From a virus: a stretch of DNA of 20,234 nucleotides. The position numbers were made by a program, and so were the translations under genes. Shown here piece by piece: positions 3,437 through 20,234 of the stretch; within the stretch, counting starts at the first letter, position 1, and each line of letters opens with the position of its first letter. The stretch covers positions 1 to 20,234 of the IMG/VR virus record IMGVR_UViG_3300028610_001749; one strand, 5' to 3'. The notes under the pieces were generated by a model. It was not told the origin of the DNA and did no database searches. It saw nothing but the letters and a program-made list of their open reading frames with translations.

Positions 3437-3835
3437 ATGGAAACAATAGAAAATACAATTCAAAGGAAATATCCTAAAGAGCCAACAAAATTTGAGGGTT
3501 TTCCTAAAGAACCACAAACTAACTATTGGCCTTATCCAAGAGAAGTTGATGGGTGGTGGCATAAACTAACTGGAGGCGAACAAAAAGTCCTTGATTATAT
3601 TTTAAGACATACTTGGGGATATAAAAAAACAACTGACAAAATCAGCTTTAGCCAATTTGAAAAGGGTATTTACTCAAAAAGAACAAGAAAATGGATTGAT
3701 AGGGGAACTGGATTAAGAAGCCAAGCGATAAGCAATTCAATTAAATGTCTTGAAGAAAAGGGCTTTATTATTGTTAATAGAACGAAAGGCAAAGCAACAG
3801 AATTTAAACTTAAAACAAAAGAACAACTACTTTGA
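3437..3835 (+). CDS. Phage replication protein O-like winged-helix protein
   Basis: 132 aa from ATG 3437; the in-frame TTG at 3428 inside the previous gene is less likely. The segment GWWHKLTGGEQKVLDYILRH, then TWGYKKTTDKISFSQF, then GLRSQAISNSIKCLEEKGFI matches the N-terminal winged-helix DNA-binding domain of the phage O family. The protein is much shorter than lambda O (about 300 aa) and lacks the C-terminal helicase-loader-binding part. Its stop codon TGA lies inside the first of three 19-bp iterons (3827-3891), reproducing the lambda arrangement in which O binds iterons within its own gene. The likely role is origin recognition. How it recruits the SF3 helicase is unknown. Confidence 0.72.
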   Translation: METIENTIQRKYPKEPTKFEGFPKEPQTNYWPYPREVDGWWHKLTGGEQKVLDYILRHTWGYKKTTDKISFSQFEKGIYSKRTRKWIDRGTGLRSQAISNSIKCLEEKGFIIVNRTKGKATEFKLKTKEQLL

Positions 3836-3969: not shown

Positions 3970-3998
3970 TTGACAGATTTAGACAAGAGAAGTAAGAT
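3970..3998 (+). promoter_or_regulatory. Sigma70-type promoter of the structured leader
   Basis: TTGACA at 3970-3975, 17-bp spacer, TAAGAT at 3993-3998; start near 4005. It would transcribe the non-coding RNA elements at 4030-4598 and, with read-through, the sigma-like, zinc-finger and helicase genes. In lambda, transcription past the origin helps activate it. Confidence 0.6.
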
Positions 3999-4029
3999 AA
4001 AGAAGTAAGTTTAAAAATTAAAAATTATA

Positions 4030-4126
4030 TCCATTTACCTTTAAGAACTCTTTAGCAGTTTCCTGTTCTCTATTTAATTAAGGTAAATGGAAAATGGGAA
4101 ACAGGGGACTGCTTGAGAGTTTTTTA
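4030..4126 (+). ncRNA. Structured RNA B: 22-bp stem with loop-to-leader pairing and T6
   Basis: Bases 4046-4067 pair with 4100-4121 over 22 positions with only one mismatch when G-U pairs are counted. The 32-nt loop contains AAGGTAAATGG (4080-4090), perfectly complementary to CCATTTACCTT (4031-4041) just upstream, plus one more pair at 4030/4091. The two helices interleave (a-b-a'-b'), so they form a pseudoknot or compete. The long stem ends at a T6 tract, making it a terminator. No ORF explains the covarying pairs. Confidence 0.65.
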
Positions 4127-4158
4127 ATTAACAATTTAATAGGAAAACTACCTAAGCT

Positions 4159-4177
4159 ACTTTCAATTATTGAAAGT
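4159..4177 (+). repeat. Perfect small hairpin
   Basis: ACTTTCAA (4159-4166) and TTGAAAGT (4170-4177) pair perfectly around a 3-nt loop, between structured elements B and C. It has no T-run and no clear function. Confidence 0.5.
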
Positions 4178-4190
4178 TGTATGGTAATAA

Positions 4191-4299
4191 AACGCATAAG
4201 GGGTGGGAAGCTCTCTATCGGAGTCCTTATGCGTTATATTCTGAAAGGAATATAAATAGCTTTTCAAAGCTATTCTCTGGATAGGGAGCTTTTTGTTTT
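4191..4299 (+). ncRNA. Structured RNA C: pseudoknot-type fold ending in a terminator
   Basis: Helix 1 is AACGCATAAGG/CCTTATGCGTT (4191-4201, 4225-4235), 11 perfect pairs. Its loop contains AAGCTCTCTATC (4208-4219), which pairs over 12 bases (one G-U) with GATAGGGAGCTT (4280-4291), giving an interleaved pseudoknot. Between them sit TATATTC/GAATATA (4235-4241, 4248-4254) and AATAGCTTT/AAAGCTATT (4255-4263, 4266-4274). The last helix runs into TTTTGTTTT. The layout is that of a terminator-coupled regulatory RNA or a compact small RNA. I do not recognise the class. Confidence 0.68.
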
Positions 4300-4319
4300 G
4301 AAAAATAAGTAAATTAAAA

Positions 4320-4401
4320 AATACTCTTAGAATATCTGGTCAATTTACTCTGATTGGCTGGTGGGTTATTCTAAAGAGATTATAAAACAGAGAAGAGTAT
4401 T
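4320..4401 (+). ncRNA. Structured RNA D with alternative pairings
   Basis: AATACTCTT (4320-4328) can pair with AAGAGTATT (4393-4401). The overlapping CTCTTAGAATA (4324-4334) can instead pair with TATTCTAAAGAG (4367-4378) with one bulged A, so the two states exclude each other. CTGGTCAAT/ATTGGCTGG (4336-4344, 4353-4361) forms a 9-bp inner helix with G-U pairs. No T-run follows. Confidence 0.5.
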
Positions 4402-4565
4402 CTTGATAAATCTAATAATTGATTTCACTTAAAAAAGAAGTGGAATACAAAAGGTTTATTTACATCGGTGGAAACTTTAAACGAAAGACGAATAAATTAA
4501 ATGTTTAGAGAAGAATAGCGCATAATGGTTTTTTTATGCCTTATTTTGATTTGAACATTTTTTTG
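4402..4565 (+). other. Rest of non-coding leader
   Basis: Contains a hairpin TTTCACTT/AAGTGGAA (4423-4430, 4438-4445) and a weak GCATAA/TTATGC stem (4520-4525, 4534-4539). No reading frame of note was found. It is part of the leader between promoter 3970-3998 and the gene at 4641. Confidence 0.4.
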
Positions 4566-4570
4566 ATTAG

Positions 4571-4598
4571 GCGGCCGTTATTGCGGTCGTTTTTTTTA
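4571..4598 (+). terminator. Strong intrinsic terminator before the sigma-like gene
   Basis: CGGCCG (4572-4577) and CGGTCG (4584-4589) form a GC-rich stem with a TTATTG loop, followed by eight or more Ts. It stands 43 bp before the start at 4641, so downstream expression needs read-through or a promoter not seen. Confidence 0.85.
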
Positions 4599-4640
4599 TT
4601 TATTAGAAACCAAATTTGACGGGATTTGGTGGGGGATTCG

Positions 4641-5594
4641 GTGGAAAATCAAGTGAAAGAAAATAACTATCAAGCCAGTTTAAATTTAAAGGAAGAAATA
4701 AAAAGAATAATAAAAGAAGCTCCATTTTTTCTTCAAGATAAATGGGCTGGGATTTTTATTGGTTTTTTAGTGAAGAAAGCGAATAGAAACAGATATTTGT
4801 TTGATGGATTTGATGATGCCCTGATGTGTTTCAAGATTAAGATTTGGGAAATTGGTCAAAAAATTAAGAGTGGTGAAATAAAAATAAATGGTGGTGCTTG
4901 GAAAACTCGGTCAGATTCTGAACAGGTTATTAAACAAGCATCTCAAAAGATTGCTTATGCTTATTTAAAAATAAGCATTAACCGTTATATTGAGAAGGTG
5001 GAAGACGAATTAGATACACAGAAACGGAAAGACCCAAATGGTCAACCGCTTTCGTTAGATGAAAAGGTTGGTGATGAAAATGGTAATAAAAATAAAGGAT
5101 TAGAGAGGAATGAGATAATCCCTGATAAGAAAATCCTCCGACCAGACCAGATAGCAGAAACAAGAGAAAATGAACGGGAAATCTTAAAAATGATAAAGAA
5201 GCTAAAAGAAACAATCGGAACAAAGCCAGAATGGGAAGTGATTAAATCTATTGTTGATAAGAAAAATGTCAAGCCAGAGGATATTATGACTGATACAAAA
5301 CAACCCGCCAATGGATACTCATATTCAATAGAGAAATTAAAAAAACAACAAATACTTAAAAAAATAATGTTCAACCTTCAATCAAGAGGAACAAAGGGAA
5401 ACAGATATTTAGATGGTGTTATTAGAGAAATTAAGAGATTATCTGAAGGGGAAACTGACCTTGAAAAATTAGCTTATATAAGAAAATTTACTTTATCAAA
5501 ACCAGACAGCTTTAAGCTCCCACAGAAGGAAGCATTGACCATTTTAAGCCGTTTACGGAAATATAGAGAAGGGAAATTCAATAAAAATCTTTAA
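4641..5594 (+). CDS. Sigma-70-like protein (divergent), 317 aa
   Basis: GTG 4641 is chosen because GGTGGGGG lies just upstream; an in-frame TTG at 4626 would add five residues. Residues about 50-120 (DGFDDALMCFKIKIWE, then AYAYLKISINRYIEKVEDEL) follow the spacing of sigma region 2. QPLSLDEKVGDENG (136-148), then EIIPDKKILRPDQIAE and ENEREILKMIKKL, are like the start of sigma region 3/4 in sigma-70 proteins. The last 130 residues are basic, and I do not see a clear region 4 HTH. If real, it could redirect host RNA polymerase or serve past the upstream terminators. An unrelated replication protein is the alternative. It begins the helicase gene cluster. Confidence 0.45.
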   Translation: MENQVKENNYQASLNLKEEIKRIIKEAPFFLQDKWAGIFIGFLVKKANRNRYLFDGFDDALMCFKIKIWEIGQKIKSGEIKINGGAWKTRSDSEQVIKQASQKIAYAYLKISINRYIEKVEDELDTQKRKDPNGQPLSLDEKVGDENGNKNKGLERNEIIPDKKILRPDQIAETRENEREILKMIKKLKETIGTKPEWEVIKSIVDKKNVKPEDIMTDTKQPANGYSYSIEKLKKQQILKKIMFNLQSRGTKGNRYLDGVIREIKRLSEGETDLEKLAYIRKFTLSKPDSFKLPQKEALTILSRLRKYREGKFNKNL

Positions 5595-10488: not shown

Positions 10489-10715
10489 TTGAAAATAATA
10501 CTAAGTTTATGGACTGGGCAATAAAGATTATGCGAAGCAAGAGTAAAACAAAAGAAACGTTGAAACAAAAGGAACTTGTTATTGAAAAGATATTGCCGAC
10601 TTGCGTTCCACGACTAATTAAAGTTACCAGAGAAGATGGTCAACTAATAACTTTAGAATTTGATGAAGCGTTTAATGAAAATGATTTTACACCAGAAACA
10701 AAAAGATGTAATTAA
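10485..10715 (+). CDS. Small terminase-linked protein, 76 aa
   Basis: GTG 10485 overlaps the TGA of the previous gene (GTGA), so translation is probably coupled. Helical N-terminal half, then LIKVTREDGQLITLEFDEAF and a short tail. The ending LITLEFDEAFNEND copies the C-terminal motif of the preceding protein (RISIKFDEAFNKD), although the rest differs. Its last 35 bp overlap the large terminase start. It may be a second small-terminase-type subunit or an adaptor that uses the shared motif. Confidence 0.5.
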   Translation: MIENNTKFMDWAIKIMRSKSKTKETLKQKELVIEKILPTCVPRLIKVTREDGQLITLEFDEAFNENDFTPETKRCN

Positions 10716-12063
10716 AAATAATGCGAGATTCAAAGTAATCAGAGCCGGTAGAAGAAGCGGTAAGACAATACTTGAACGAGAGGATATGAGCTTTGAAGCA
10801 ATATCTCAAAAAGATAGAAATATATTTTATATTTGTCCTACACAAATCCAAGCCAGAGAAATAATCTGGGAGATGTTTAAAAAGAGATTATCAGCAATGG
10901 CCACTTTTCACGAACAAAGGTTGGAAATAAAAGTCCTTGCTCAAGATGATGGATATTCTTATATCAAATTAGGAAGCTGGGAAAATAGAGAGAACTTTAG
11001 AGGTAAGCCAGCAGACAAGATTGTATTTGACGAAGTAGATACAATGCGTGATTTCTTTATTGGCTGGCAAGAGATATTTAGACCAGCTTTAATGGATTCA
11101 GGCGGAGGCGCTTCATTTATAGGAACGCCAAAAAAAGAAAACCCCAATTTACGAAGATTAGAAAAGATAGCCGAGATAGATAGCGACTACGCTGTATTTC
11201 ATTTTACATCATTGGATAATCCTTACTTGTCAGACGAGGAGAAGAAAAAAACCAAAGATGAGCTTGATTTTGAAACTTACAGACAAGAGATATTGGCTGA
11301 ATATGTGGATAGTCAAGGAGCTTTATTCAGATATGACGCTCTAATAGACATCTTTTCAAATACAATAACTAAGACAGGGAAGAAGTATTTAATTGTAGAT
11401 ATTGCTGATGACGGCTCTGATAAGACCATATTTAGCTTTTGGGAAGATTTAGAAGAATACAGACGAGAGGAGTATGCCCAATTAAATACCGAAATCATAG
11501 TCAATAAAATAAGAGAGTATGCTTCACAAGACCAAATCCCCTATTCTCAAATAGCTGTTGACGCTATCGGAGTAGGAGCGGGTATAGCTTCAAGTTCTAT
11601 ACTGAAAGGCATAATTGGATTTAAGAGTTCTTATCAAGCTATTAAAACCGAAAGAAGTATAGTTTATTTACCGGATGTCAGTTTTACCAAAGAAGCTCCG
11701 CTTTTAACAGAATACAGAAACCTTAGAAGTCAATGTATCTTTACCCTTGCTGATTTAGTCAACAATCATAAAATAGCTTCAAGATTAGATGGCAAAATGA
11801 AAGAGAATATTATTGAAGAACTGACAGTTTATCAAGACGCAAGCAAAGGAGATGGTAAGCAAATGGCTACTCAAAAAGAAGATGTTAGAGCTTTGATAGG
11901 GCGTAGTCCAGACCATTCAGATTGTTTTATTATGAGAATGTATTTTGAAGTTATGGGTAAAATGATTCCAGACCAGTCAGAAGAACAAGAAGATATTACC
12001 AGAAAAATGAAGGAACAGTTTGAGATAAATAAGGTAAACATCTTAAATGAATCTAACAAATAA
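10681..12063 (+). CDS. terL: Terminase large subunit
   Basis: 460 aa from ATG 10681, chosen because family members begin just before a 'LHxKQK' segment (MILHQKQKDV here); ATGs at 10663 and 10675 are also in frame. Walker A is GRRSGKT (23-29), Walker B KIVFDEVD (D117, E118), and the coupling motif is SFIGTPKK (145-152). The nuclease domain has D240 in YLIVDIAD, D294 in IAVDAIG, and D411/D414 in PDHSD. All motor and nuclease motifs are present. It should cut and pump DNA into a procapsid. The start overlaps the preceding gene by 35 bp. It is the only unambiguous virion-assembly gene seen. Confidence 0.93.
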   Translation: MILHQKQKDVIKNNARFKVIRAGRRSGKTILEREDMSFEAISQKDRNIFYICPTQIQAREIIWEMFKKRLSAMATFHEQRLEIKVLAQDDGYSYIKLGSWENRENFRGKPADKIVFDEVDTMRDFFIGWQEIFRPALMDSGGGASFIGTPKKENPNLRRLEKIAEIDSDYAVFHFTSLDNPYLSDEEKKKTKDELDFETYRQEILAEYVDSQGALFRYDALIDIFSNTITKTGKKYLIVDIADDGSDKTIFSFWEDLEEYRREEYAQLNTEIIVNKIREYASQDQIPYSQIAVDAIGVGAGIASSSILKGIIGFKSSYQAIKTERSIVYLPDVSFTKEAPLLTEYRNLRSQCIFTLADLVNNHKIASRLDGKMKENIIEELTVYQDASKGDGKQMATQKEDVRALIGRSPDHSDCFIMRMYFEVMGKMIPDQSEEQEDITRKMKEQFEINKVNILNESNK

Positions 12064-15631: not shown

Positions 15632-18600
15632 ATGGCAAACATTTTAGGACTATTATTTAAAGATGTAGTTAAAACTACTGGCAGAATCCCTGCTAAATTT
15701 CCACCAACACCTAAAAGATTTACGCCAATAGAGGAACTTCCTGGAACTATTGGAGGAGGACTTTCCGTAGCTGATATTATGGCTACTCCGTTTAAAAGAT
15801 TAGCCAAAGGGAAACCAGTTTTTAGAGAACCGATAACAGCTCCAAAGATAGAACCTGTTTTGCCAGAATTAGCTCCTAAAAAGTTTATTGGCGACCCAGA
15901 AAAGAAACTGGACTTAATTAAAAATACTATTTTAGGATTGCCAGAGGCAGCACTTCAAACATTGCCATTTGTTAAGCTATTAAGACAGCCAGCACCTGAA
16001 ACTTTTGCTGGCAGAGCTAAAGCGATTGGCAACGAAGCAATAGATTTTATCAGAGGGCTTGGTCAGTATGTCGTTAGTGTAGGCACTTCAGCAGTTTCAT
16101 TATTAAGAGATGAGCCAATAGAGGAACAAATAAAAACCTTGCCATTTTTAGGGCAAGTTCCTACTTATGAAAAAGAAGCACACGAACAGCTAATCGCTGG
16201 AGTTAGTCCTCTTGAGGTTGGTATTAGTTTATTTGCTAAGGCGGCTATCACGACCAGTATTCTTACCCCGGGGGCTTTAAGGATTACCCGGGCATTAAAA
16301 CCAAAGATAACAATTAAATCCACCAAGACATCTTTATCAAAGCAAGATGTTTCTGACATTACCAGAGGAGCAGAGATAGCACCTGAAAAACTTAATGCTT
16401 TCAAACAAGCTGTTGATGAAGGAATTAAAATTGGACAAGAATTAAGAAGAGGCAATGAGGTTATTGTCAGGGTAGATACGCCAAGAGCCACAGGCGAATT
16501 ATTATATCAGCCGGTCAGCAAAACATTATTTAAAAAAGTTATTCAAGAAGTTAAAGCAAAAGAGTTTGCCCCGGGTCTGACTATTAAAGATATTTCAAAA
16601 GAACTTCAACCTTTAGTTAAGGTGGCAAAGAAGTTTAAGACAGCAGAGGATTTTGTGGCAAGTTCGGTCAATATAGATAAAGCAGTCAAAGCCGTTACTG
16701 GCAAAGATATCCCTGAAGCTGGAGTTGGCCGTAGAGAGTTATTAAAAGAAACCCAAGACATATTGATTAAAAATGGATTCAAGGATTTACAAGATTTTTA
16801 TAACAAAGTAGTTAGACCAACAGAAACTCCCGGTGGCATACCAATTAGTTATATAGAAGAAGCTCCGCCTGTGTTTGGCGAGGCAAAGACCATAGCTGAT
16901 TTAAAGAAAGTTCAGTTTGGCGAAGTTGTTAAAAAACCAGTTAGAAGAAGAGAGCCAGAAATTCCAATCACGCTCCGAAAGCAAAGAGAAATGGTTTTGA
17001 CACCTGAAGAATATGCTGAAACAGATTTATTCAAACAAATTGAAAAACAGGTTGAAGACCTAACACCAGAACAGGAGCAGGCAATTTTAGAGGCAGATGT
17101 TCAACGGGACTTAGGCGATATTGAAAGGAATGTTAAAAAGCAGTTGTTTGATGATATTTTATTGATTGGTGGAATTAAAAGTTTTAAGGGTGGATTCTTA
17201 GCAGAGGAGTTGGCACAAGTTCCATTGAGATTAAGAAATAATAAAACTGGCCAGCCATTAGACGAGGTTTCTTCATCATTAAACGAAAGGGGATATAATT
17301 TTGAAAGCGATACTGATTTATTAGAAGCTATCTTGAAAGTTGAAACAAGAGGGGCAGTTGTTGCTCAACCAAAGAAAGCTCAAGTTAGGGCAATACTCAA
17401 ATCAATTCAAACTATTAAGAGAATTACACCAGAGGCCATTATCAAGAAAGCCACAACAGGCAGAAACGCAACACTTAGGCAATTACTGGCCAAAGTTTCC
17501 AAGCTCCCGTCAAGGATAGGAGCAAGGAAGATAACTAAACCAGAACCAGTCCTATTAAGAGGAAAAATCAGAGCAATAGCTAAAGGAGCTAAGATTGGAG
17601 CAAGGGCAGGACGGGCAGAGGCAAGATTATCCACGACCAGAGCTTTAATTGATAAGTTCACAAACAGAATAACCTTAATGAAAAGGCAACAGGAGCTTGG
17701 AAAGCTCAAAGGCAGAATCCTTGAAAGAGAGATTGCTAAAATAAAACAAGAAGCTGAAGATATTATTAAAACCTTTTTACCTAAAGCTGAAAGAGGAACA
17801 TCAGATTTATTGACCAAGTTAAGAAAAGCCAAGACCCTAAAAGATATTGAGGCATTAAAAACCAGAGTTGGCAATTTAGCAGAAGCAAAAGATATCAGAG
17901 TTTTGAAAACTTTAATCAGGAAAGAGGTAAAAGTAATCAAGCCAAAAAAGGTAGCTGGTAAACCAGTTGGAAGGTTTACGCCAGAGATTCAAAAAGTTCT
18001 TGATACTTTTAGGAAAACGATATTGTTAAAAGCGTCTGATGTTGAGTTGAAAATACAAGAAAATTTATTGAAGTTTGAGGAGCAAATAATGCCTTTAGAT
18101 ATAGCTTTAGAGAACAGAATTTTGAGTTTATTTCAAGGTAATCCCCAACAGCTTCAAACATTATTGAATCAGATTATTGAAATGAAGAATACCGGCCGAA
18201 TGTTGTCAGAACTAAAGGCCTTTAATTTAGAGGAAGACCTAACGAGAAAAAGAAACCTTGTTGTTGACCACGCTACCGGATTTGCTGGGACTAAGGAGGG
18301 ATTACAAACAACAGGAAAACCAGCTAAGACGACATCAGAGAGATTGAAGCAATCCTTGAAGTCCTTAGGCGACAAGTGGATTGTGAGTTGGGAGGGCTTA
18401 ATGGATATAGTTGACTTCAATGCTGGAGTTGAGAATCAGGCATTAGCCAAGACCTTTTCAGTTATCAAACAAGAGAACAGATTTAAAGAATTAGAAAATG
18501 CCTATATTGATGACTTCAATAAAATGATTTCTGATGTCTATGGAATTGAGAACAAACCAAGCAAGATAAATAAGAAAATAATAGACAATAATCAACCAAT

Positions 18601-20234
18601 CAATCTTGGCAAGGTTAGTAATTCAGTTGGCCAAGAGGTTGAGCTTATTTTTACTAAAGATGAAATGATTAAGATGTGGCAGGAGTTTCAAGACCCAACA
18701 TTAGATTTATCTTTTGAGCTTGGCAATAATTTCACTCAAGAAATAAAAGACAAGATAATTTCTCAATTATCTAAAGAAGATATCGTATTAGGCAAAGCAG
18801 AAATGGAGCTTTACCGAGAACAAGGGAATAAAATCAATGATATCTTTAGAGATATTAACGGAATTGATTTACCTTTTAATGAAAATTACTCTCCAATTAG
18901 ACGAGTTGGATTCCGGTCAAGCACAGAAAAAGGACTTGGGGAGTTCATTGAGGAGGCAACCTATCGCAGAGCCGTTACTACTGGAAGCGTAAAGAGCAGA
19001 ATCAAAACATTCTTGCCTCTTGAAAAACAAGGGAGCTTAGAAGTATTAGACAAACACTTTCACGAAACCAATTATTATATCGCTTGGGCTAAAAAAGTCC
19101 GGGAGCTTGATTTGGTATTTAAGAACGCAAGAGTTAGAGATGTTTTAAAAGACCAATATGCCAATAGCACTATTTCGGCCATAGACGCTACAATCAATGA
19201 CTTATCAACGAATGGAAATAAGTTTGCCAGAAGATATAAGACCGTTGATTACTTCAGGAAAAACTTTACCATTGGAGCTTTAATGGTTAAGCCGGCGCTA
19301 ACGGCTAAACAATATGTATCCACGATAGCTTATATGGAAAAACTGAATCCTATTGATTTTGCTTTAGGAGTAGCTAACTTTTGGAAACACCCTATTGCTA
19401 ATACCCGGATACTAAACGAGGAAAGTATTTTTATAAAAACAAGAGGAAAGTTAGGAGCTATTGAAAGAGATATCAAGTCGGCTATAAGTTCTGATGTCGG
19501 AAAACGATACTCAAAGAAACAAAACTTTATGAATACTTTTATGATGAATGTCCGGCTTGGCGACAAAGGAGCTATCCTGACAGGTTCTTGGGCTATAAGA
19601 AAAGCAAGATTAAAACAAGGCATTGGAATTAAAGATATTATTGATGAATACGAGAAGTTTGGAAGCGAAACCCAACAATCAGCCGACCTCTCTCAATTAT
19701 CAGAAGTTCAAAGAGGCGGAAGTTTAGAACAGCTTTTTACAATGTTTAAGTCCAGTCAAAGACAATATCTGGCCAAAGAGTTAAATGCTATCAAAAGCGT
19801 ATTTCAAAAAGGTGGAGCAAGCAGGAAAAACATCAAAAGGGCTGCGAGGATATTTACTATCTATCATATTCTCTTACCGGTTATATTCCAGTTGATTGCT
19901 AACTTTGGAGGTTGGGACGAAGATGACCGCAAGGATTATATCCGGGCAGGGATACTTGGTTCACTCAACGGCTTGTTTATTTTTGGTGATATTGTGGATA
20001 GCATAGTCAGGACGGCATTAGGTTTGAGGGTTTGGGATATGGAAGTCCCGGTTGCGACAATCGCTGACGACATCAACAAAGGAATCAGGGAAATAGATTT
20101 TGACGATATTGAAATTGAAGATGTCTGGGAGGCCACTAAAGAAATGACAGAGGCCGGGAATAGTTTAGGAATACCAGTTGAGCAGACCTTTGGAATAGCA
20201 AAAGGAATCCAAAATATAATGGATGGCGATATTA
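15632..20234 (+). CDS. Giant polyvalent-type phage protein (5' part; continues at base 1)
   Basis: Starts at ATG 15632, 3 bp after the stop of the 815-aa gene, and stays open to the window end. Joined in frame to 1-299 it gives about 1,585 aa. No single enzymatic domain is obvious. The N-terminal part has proline-rich linkers and a hydrophobic patch near residues 195-215; the middle (about 630-850) is basic and helical. The C-terminal third resembles the C-terminal regions of large polyvalent protein-associated (LPD) domains. Marks there are NENYSPIRR near residue 1083, PALTAKQY near 1221, RLGDKGAILTGSW near 1305, FTMFKSSQRQYLAKEL near 1365, and two hydrophobic segments near 1410-1425 and 1440-1460. 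Polyvalent proteins are generally thought to be delivered with the DNA into the host cell. The family call is by pattern only. A virion-internal or ejected role is inference. Confidence 0.72.
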   Translation, partial: MANILGLLFKDVVKTTGRIPAKFPPTPKRFTPIEELPGTIGGGLSVADIMATPFKRLAKGKPVFREPITAPKIEPVLPELAPKKFIGDPEKKLDLIKNTILGLPEAALQTLPFVKLLRQPAPETFAGRAKAIGNEAIDFIRGLGQYVVSVGTSAVSLLRDEPIEEQIKTLPFLGQVPTYEKEAHEQLIAGVSPLEVGISLFAKAAITTSILTPGALRITRALKPKITIKSTKTSLSKQDVSDITRGAEIAPEKLNAFKQAVDEGIKIGQELRRGNEVIVRVDTPRATGELLYQPVSKTLFKKVIQEVKAKEFAPGLTIKDISKELQPLVKVAKKFKTAEDFVASSVNIDKAVKAVTGKDIPEAGVGRRELLKETQDILIKNGFKDLQDFYNKVVRPTETPGGIPISYIEEAPPVFGEAKTIADLKKVQFGEVVKKPVRRREPEIPITLRKQREMVLTPEEYAETDLFKQIEKQVEDLTPEQEQAILEADVQRDLGDIERNVKKQLFDDILLIGGIKSFKGGFLAEELAQVPLRLRNNKTGQPLDEVSSSLNERGYNFESDTDLLEAILKVETRGAVVAQPKKAQVRAILKSIQTIKRITPEAIIKKATTGRNATLRQLLAKVSKLPSRIGARKITKPEPVLLRGKIRAIAKGAKIGARAGRAEARLSTTRALIDKFTNRITLMKRQQELGKLKGRILEREIAKIKQEAEDIIKTFLPKAERGTSDLLTKLRKAKTLKDIEALKTRVGNLAEAKDIRVLKTLIRKEVKVIKPKKVAGKPVGRFTPEIQKVLDTFRKTILLKASDVELKIQENLLKFEEQIMPLDIALENRILSLFQGNPQQLQTLLNQIIEMKNTGRMLSELKAFNLEEDLTRKRNLVVDHATGFAGTKEGLQTTGKPAKTTSERLKQSLKSLGDKWIVSWEGLMDIVDFNAGVENQALAKTFSVIKQENRFKELENAYIDDFNKMISDVYGIENKPSKINKKIIDNNQPINLGKVSNSVGQEVELIFTKDEMIKMWQEFQDPTLDLSFELGNNFTQEIKDKIISQLSKEDIVLGKAEMELYREQGNKINDIFRDINGIDLPFNENYSPIRRVGFRSSTEKGLGEFIEEATYRRAVTTGSVKSRIKTFLPLEKQGSLEVLDKHFHETNYYIAWAKKVRELDLVFKNARVRDVLKDQYANSTISAIDATINDLSTNGNKFARRYKTVDYFRKNFTIGALMVKPALTAKQYVSTIAYMEKLNPIDFALGVANFWKHPIANTRILNEESIFIKTRGKLGAIERDIKSAISSDVGKRYSKKQNFMNTFMMNVRLGDKGAILTGSWAIRKARLKQGIGIKDIIDEYEKFGSETQQSADLSQLSEVQRGGSLEQLFTMFKSSQRQYLAKELNAIKSVFQKGGASRKNIKRAARIFTIYHILLPVIFQLIANFGGWDEDDRKDYIRAGILGSLNGLFIFGDIVDSIVRTALGLRVWDMEVPVATIADDINKGIREIDFDDIEIEDVWEATKEMTEAGNSLGIPVEQTFGIAKGIQNIMDGDI
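20091..20234. repeat. Terminal direct repeat, right copy
   Basis: Exact copy of bases 1-144. It contains coding sequence near the C-terminus of the giant protein that starts at 15632. Only one copy should be counted in the biological molecule if it is a circle. Confidence 0.95.

Follow-up and report, generated by a model that had tools for sequence, protein, structure and literature searches.

What occupies the gene-free leader that lies between a replication O-like gene and the gene at 4641 in this phage genome, and what might it do to the genes that follow? The original prediction regarded the leader as unlike anything described, a view that did not survive, because its strongest element belongs to a known Rfam family, the LOOT RNA. 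Most of what can be said of its possible role comes from the relatives of this RNA in other genomes.

Phage genome and layout of the leader

The window, by which we mean the whole stretch of DNA analysed, is a viral contig 20,234 bases long. An exact direct repeat of 144 bases at its two ends (1-144 and 20091-20234) makes it probable that the genome is complete and either circular or permuted. It encodes a terminase, a D5-like helicase, a primase zinc finger, the replication O-like protein, a serine resolvase, and a topoisomerase-like protein. The last ORF (15632-20233) is open at its end and runs on into an ORF at 54-299, which ends in a run of DL dipeptides. The terminase (10660-12063) is 51-70% identical to those of 38 virus contigs (L419-L456), which have almost no other gene in common with the window, one weak match excepted, and none of which carries a LOOT RNA above the cut-off. 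More distant relatives of the terminase, with 34-36% identity over parts of the protein, are present in three Patescibacteria genomes, and these, taken together with the LOOT RNA, point to Patescibacteria as the likely host at the phylum level. The search for relatives of the window based on the helicase reached only ~27% identity, that based on the protein encoded at 4641 found none, and the leader itself had no BLASTN match among phages and plasmids.

The leader, all features of which lie on the plus strand, is headed by a sigma-70-type promoter (TTGACA-17-TAAGAT, 3970-3998), which is the likely start of the leader transcript. This promoter is present as predicted and matches the consensus at 10 of 12 positions, but such sites are no commoner in the region than in shuffled sequences (5 versus 3.5 expected). 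The absence of genes behind it was confirmed, as there is no plus-strand ORF of at least 60 aa between 3835 and 4626 and no convincing gene. The next gene (4641-5594) encodes 317 aa when read from GTG, or 322 aa from a TTG at 4626. It had been called sigma-like, a label that neither Pfam nor PHROGs nor the sequences in PDB support; the protein is helical by prediction, and its AlphaFold model, built from the single sequence, was uninformative (pLDDT 38).

Three strong folds had been proposed in the leader, of which the first two are strong and the third is weak. Fold 1 (4031-4125) consists of a hairpin A:A' (4031-4043 with 4078-4090), followed by a longer hairpin at 4043-4124 (-36.8 kcal/mol, z -5.6) with a T6 run behind it (4120-4125), an order that resembles an antiterminator and a terminator. 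When folded stepwise, 4030-4090 alone forms A:A' (-16.6 kcal/mol), while addition of the 3' arm yields the long hairpin and T6, and fold 1 is predicted in this way to be a second attenuator-like hairpin beside the one in LOOT. A possible mini-ORF of nine codons (MENGKQGTA, 4087-4116), noticed on reading the sequence, lies inside A' and extends into the 3' arm of fold 1, where it stops; it could be a candidate leader peptide for attenuation. The motif AAGG occurs a few bases 5' of this mini-ORF. Fold 2 is the LOOT RNA described below. Fold 3 (4320-4401) has a z of only -2.3 in the region 4310-4410, where 4 of 200 shuffles folded equally well. A further hairpin (4501-4558), absent from the original prediction, stands in a region (4410-4558) with a z of -3.75 and encloses a candidate copy of a LOOT strand.

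Three intrinsic terminators had also been listed. One of them (4569-4597) is canonical, with a G+C-rich stem, a short loop, and a T8 run, and it is the single hit of a scan of the region in which 0.2 were expected. The other two, near 4121 and near 4291, are T-runs (4120-4125 and 4290-4294) behind long large-loop helices, which a short-loop scan does not flag. The dense stacking of structured RNA and terminator-like helices ahead of the next gene was thus upheld, and attenuation is the most economical reading of the leader.

The LOOT RNA and its distribution

Fold 2 is a full-length LOOT RNA (Rfam RF03000). The region 4147-4295 folds at -47.8 kcal/mol (z -5.3), and within it 4149-4274 matches model positions 1-121 of 121 with 69.1 bits, above the gathering cut-off of 46.4. 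When the whole window, and the leader with E values up to 1, were searched against Rfam, LOOT alone was convincing; microRNA matches to fold 1 at E values up to 1 fell far below their cut-offs and were due to its long perfect hairpin. Helices P2 and P3 of the window LOOT are complete, with 12 pairs in P2 (5' strand 4191-4202, here called the code of a locus, and 3' strand 4224-4235) and nine pairs in P3. Just 5' of the RNA lies the motif ACAATTTAAT (4131-4140), which, from a comparison of ACAAYT motifs across loci, is probably the usual 5' end of the RNA; the TATAAT that usually stands 6-7 nt 5' of such a motif is missing here.

LOOT came from the survey of 224 candidates by Weinberg et al. 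2017, as cited in PMC7779021. It was taken as an example of a metagenomic family in the Rfam 14 paper, its structure was improved in the Rfam 15 paper, and the CaCoFold paper presented it as an extreme case with 28 cross-covariations (PMC7657543). None of these last three papers gives a function for LOOT, the family being defined by its structure.

A pattern scan of genome contigs and its follow-up located LOOT in Gottesmanbacteria, Patescibacteria, and other small genomes. Of 380 genomes sampled from one Patescibacteria phylum, 82 carry LOOT, with one to seven copies each; it is present in 22 of 137 genomes of a class-level sample, and 14 control genomes have none. Forty-nine other genomes were obtained with a loose pattern, 46 of which lack LOOT, and the three positives are genomes of 0.9-1.3 Mb. 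One Patescibacteria genome (G366; L469, L470, and others) holds seven copies with differing codes, four of them within 46 kb.

Four further IMG/VR virus contigs with LOOT were found by a P3 pattern, and matches of a loose 5' pattern in virus contigs were mostly due to chance. The neighbours of LOOT in the four contigs, as judged by eye, include serine recombinases and ParB-like and terminase-like genes. Among 107 proteins adjacent to chromosomal LOOT RNAs, raw counts gave 10 serine integrases and five large terminases, together with ParB-like proteins and restriction-modification genes, which suggests that many of the chromosomal loci lie in mobile or defence regions. A degenerate LOOT of 39 bits (G123:C132; L466 7659-7782), on a contig which also has a terminase related to that of the window, was left out of further comparisons.

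Features of LOOT loci beyond the Rfam model

Comparison of LOOT features across ~105 loci established that LOOT is a 5' leader ahead of genes. The next ATG ORF and the Rfam 3' end are separated by a median of 57 nt (interquartile range 49-65, ~100 loci), the gene start having been defined as the first ATG of an ORF of at least 40 codons, by which rule some starts will be wrong. On the 5' side, 61 of 108 loci have ACAAYT at a distance of 6-34 nt from a downstream CCTAA, compared with 1 of 108 for a control stretch. In 34 of these 61, a TATAAT-like -10 box 5-8 nt further upstream scores 5 or 6, compared with ~4% of random positions. The genes behind LOOT are diverse and encode zinc-ribbon proteins, DNA methylases, Staphylococcal-nuclease-like and glucodextranase-B-like proteins, and many small membrane proteins. 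The window LOOT, which sits 150 nt from the only good promoter, lacks the usual spacing of ~57 nt, as no ATG ORF of 40 codons follows within 400 nt.

The apical loop of P2 (B) pairs with the sequence immediately 3' of the Rfam model (B'), behind which comes a T-rich tail. The native B:B' duplexes average -24.9 kcal/mol, compared with -14.7 kcal/mol for mismatched loci (rank-sum p 6e-51); judged by this comparison, B:B' is a conserved and co-varying helix of terminator-like shape, at which transcription might end. In the window, B (4204-4222) and B' (4275-4294, beyond the Rfam model and overlapping the T-run 4290-4294) form a duplex of -24.2 kcal/mol, close to the family mean. The unconstrained fold of the window LOOT prefers B:B' over P2, at -47.8 kcal/mol against -41.6 kcal/mol when B' is kept unpaired. 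Since B:B' usually takes up nearly the whole P2 loop (median L1 0 nt), full B:B' and full P2 would probably compete, and a partial pseudoknot is possible. The LOOT tail is commonly CTTTGTGTT and not a pure U-run, so that B:B' may be a stable pseudoknot rather than an efficient terminator. A candidate pairing between the ACAA 5' end and a UUGU tail was also noticed by eye. Covariation, which had been suggested as a check on the whole leader, was obtained for the LOOT part; it covers that part only, as no homologues of folds 1 and 3 are known.

In about a quarter of the loci, the P2 5' strand recurs as an exact copy of 9-17 nt that abuts the start codon of the following gene. Runs of at least 9 nt were found in 24 of 99 loci, with 1.1 expected from mismatched loci, and runs of at least 10 nt in 18, with 0.3 expected; no copy at the start codon in antisense orientation was found among the 99 loci. 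Copies are also placed regularly, 23 of 27 runs of at least 8 nt falling 36-52 nt after LOOT and 21 of the 27 ending at most 5 nt from an ATG (17% for random positions). By duplex energy, the P2 3' strand pairs with the start region beyond the 1% control limit in 20 of 96 loci (16 of 81 in a simpler test). About three quarters of the loci have no copy, and they do not differ significantly in Shine-Dalgarno strength from those that have one.

Two pairs of loci bear on the origin of the copies. Orthology between G248 and the virus contig L464 extends over 614 nt (73% identity), yet their codes differ, each being repeated at its own start codon. The LOOT cores of L464 and G257_C3 are 96% identical over 128 nt, with unrelated genes behind them and otherwise unrelated spacers, and both have a matching copy. 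Neither chance nor simple shared descent explains such copies, for which pairing of the P2 3' strand with the start region would be the simplest cause and masking of the start the simplest effect. On the reverse strand of L464 (LOOT at 3454-3581), the code (AATCCGTCCAA) recurs once more just after the start codon, within the coding sequence.

A candidate copy in the window (4514-4529) overlaps an ATG at 4525-4527. Its predicted pairing with the P2 3' strand amounts to -15.4 kcal/mol (shuffle p 0.014), and none of the P2 strands of 108 other LOOT RNAs pairs as well with this start region. The exact run is 7 nt, the ORF has nine codons, and the site lies inside its own hairpin ~250 nt from LOOT (usual distance, 57 nt), so that it is a weak and suggestive instance only. 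No description of the leader position, the B:B' helix, or the start-codon copy was found in the Rfam 14, Rfam 15, and CaCoFold papers.

Proposed attenuation, rival readings, and known systems

The reading that we put forward, and hold about as readily as we doubt it, is that several transcription attenuators follow one another in the leader, with a Patescibacteria-type LOOT at their centre. Transcription would start near 4005 and pass the attenuator-like fold 1 before LOOT is made. P2 would close first during synthesis of LOOT, and once B' emerges it would pair with the P2 apical loop and, together with the T-rich tail, form a terminator-like helix. Some signal, whether a ligand, a protein, a ribosome, or another RNA, might stabilise or prevent B:B' and in this way determine whether a short LOOT RNA results or the polymerase reads on into the mRNA. 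A second level may operate at a subset of loci, where the P2 3' strand would either close P2 or cover the start codon. In this phage, access of transcription to the operon of the replication module, from 4641 onwards, would be governed by the LOOT switch.

An alternative is that LOOT, transcribed from a promoter of its own and ended by its own terminator, is an independent small RNA gene that acts in trans via the P2 3' strand, the phage copy targeting host or phage messages. The Rfam type of LOOT ('Gene; sRNA'), the -10 box and conserved 5' end of many loci, the complementarity of the start-codon copies to the P2 3' strand, and the window LOOT without a gene at the usual distance are all in its favour. 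The near-constant short spacing to the next ATG and the match of codes to the adjacent gene speak for linkage in cis instead, as does the weaker pairing of the code with every other gene start in the window, and we consider action in trans unlikely. It is likewise conceivable that stacked terminators passively shield the operon at 4641 from transcription arising at 3970 and upstream, LOOT being kept for its terminator alone. Terminators insulate mobile elements such as Tn916 (PMC11658703), and the leader has terminator-like ends at 4120-4125, 4290-4294, and 4590-4597. A terminator would need B:B' only, whereas P2, P3, P4, and B:B' are all kept in the window, and a promoter-like site heads the stretch, which together make passive shielding distinctly improbable.

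Processive antitermination of the put type, in which an early leader RNA (fold 1 or LOOT) would bind RNA polymerase so that later terminators are passed, seems very improbable. The put RNA of HK022, of ~70 nt with two stem-loops, binds RNA polymerase (PMC9378689), and putL and putR resemble the present case in that a structured phage RNA comes shortly after a promoter and ahead of terminators. LOOT is longer, has four or more helices in a different fold, ends in a terminator-like 3' helix of its own, and precedes many unrelated single chromosomal genes, so that the likeness to put that had been raised is not supported. Nor, judged by boxA, is that to lambda nut, with the boxA consensus no commoner in the window than in shuffled sequences (38 versus 47 expected) and the best match in the leader having three mismatches.

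Beyond attenuation in this one leader, LOOT is possibly a mobile regulatory cassette that is widespread among Patescibacteria and their viruses, an idea that we offer tentatively and with more doubt than belief. The P2 code, repeated at the start of the cargo gene, would serve as a private antisense switch atop a terminator, and phages would carry and exchange the cassettes, block-wise exchange of codes explaining the exceptional cross-covariation. The new features may themselves account for the 28 cross-covariations that were singled out (PMC7657543). Structure apart, the Rfam and CaCoFold papers contain neither function, nor gene context, nor host for LOOT, and the present comparison, in which LOOT heads genes across a large share of the Patescibacteria, supplies all three as testable statements; a role of LOOT as an on/off switch can now be tested via the B:B' helix and the start-codon copies, and the family may show how a phylum with obligately small genomes and its phages check mobile cargo genes.

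Among known systems, attenuator leaders of the riboswitch, T-box, and leader-peptide kinds share with the present leader mutually constraining helices, a terminator-like 3' helix, and possible masking of the start, as well as the mini-ORF in fold 1. They differ in that the genes behind LOOT are mutually unrelated, which suggests no shared metabolite. In type III toxin-antitoxin loci such as ToxIN, a pseudoknot-prone RNA is followed by a terminator and then a gene, a layout like that of LOOT; this identity was rejected because the genes behind LOOT are so diverse (zinc ribbons, DNA methylases, nucleases, membrane proteins), and LOOT has no tandem RNA repeats. With RF03000 itself, the window shares helices P1-P4 in a full-length match above the curated cut-off, and it differs in its phage setting and in having no gene at the usual distance, while the B:B' helix, the ACAAYT 5' end, and the start-codon copy lie outside the covariance model. 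The leader is real and unusual, with a known RNA family as its core. The phage LOOT is a new member of that family in a new setting, and the family-level features are the more interesting result.
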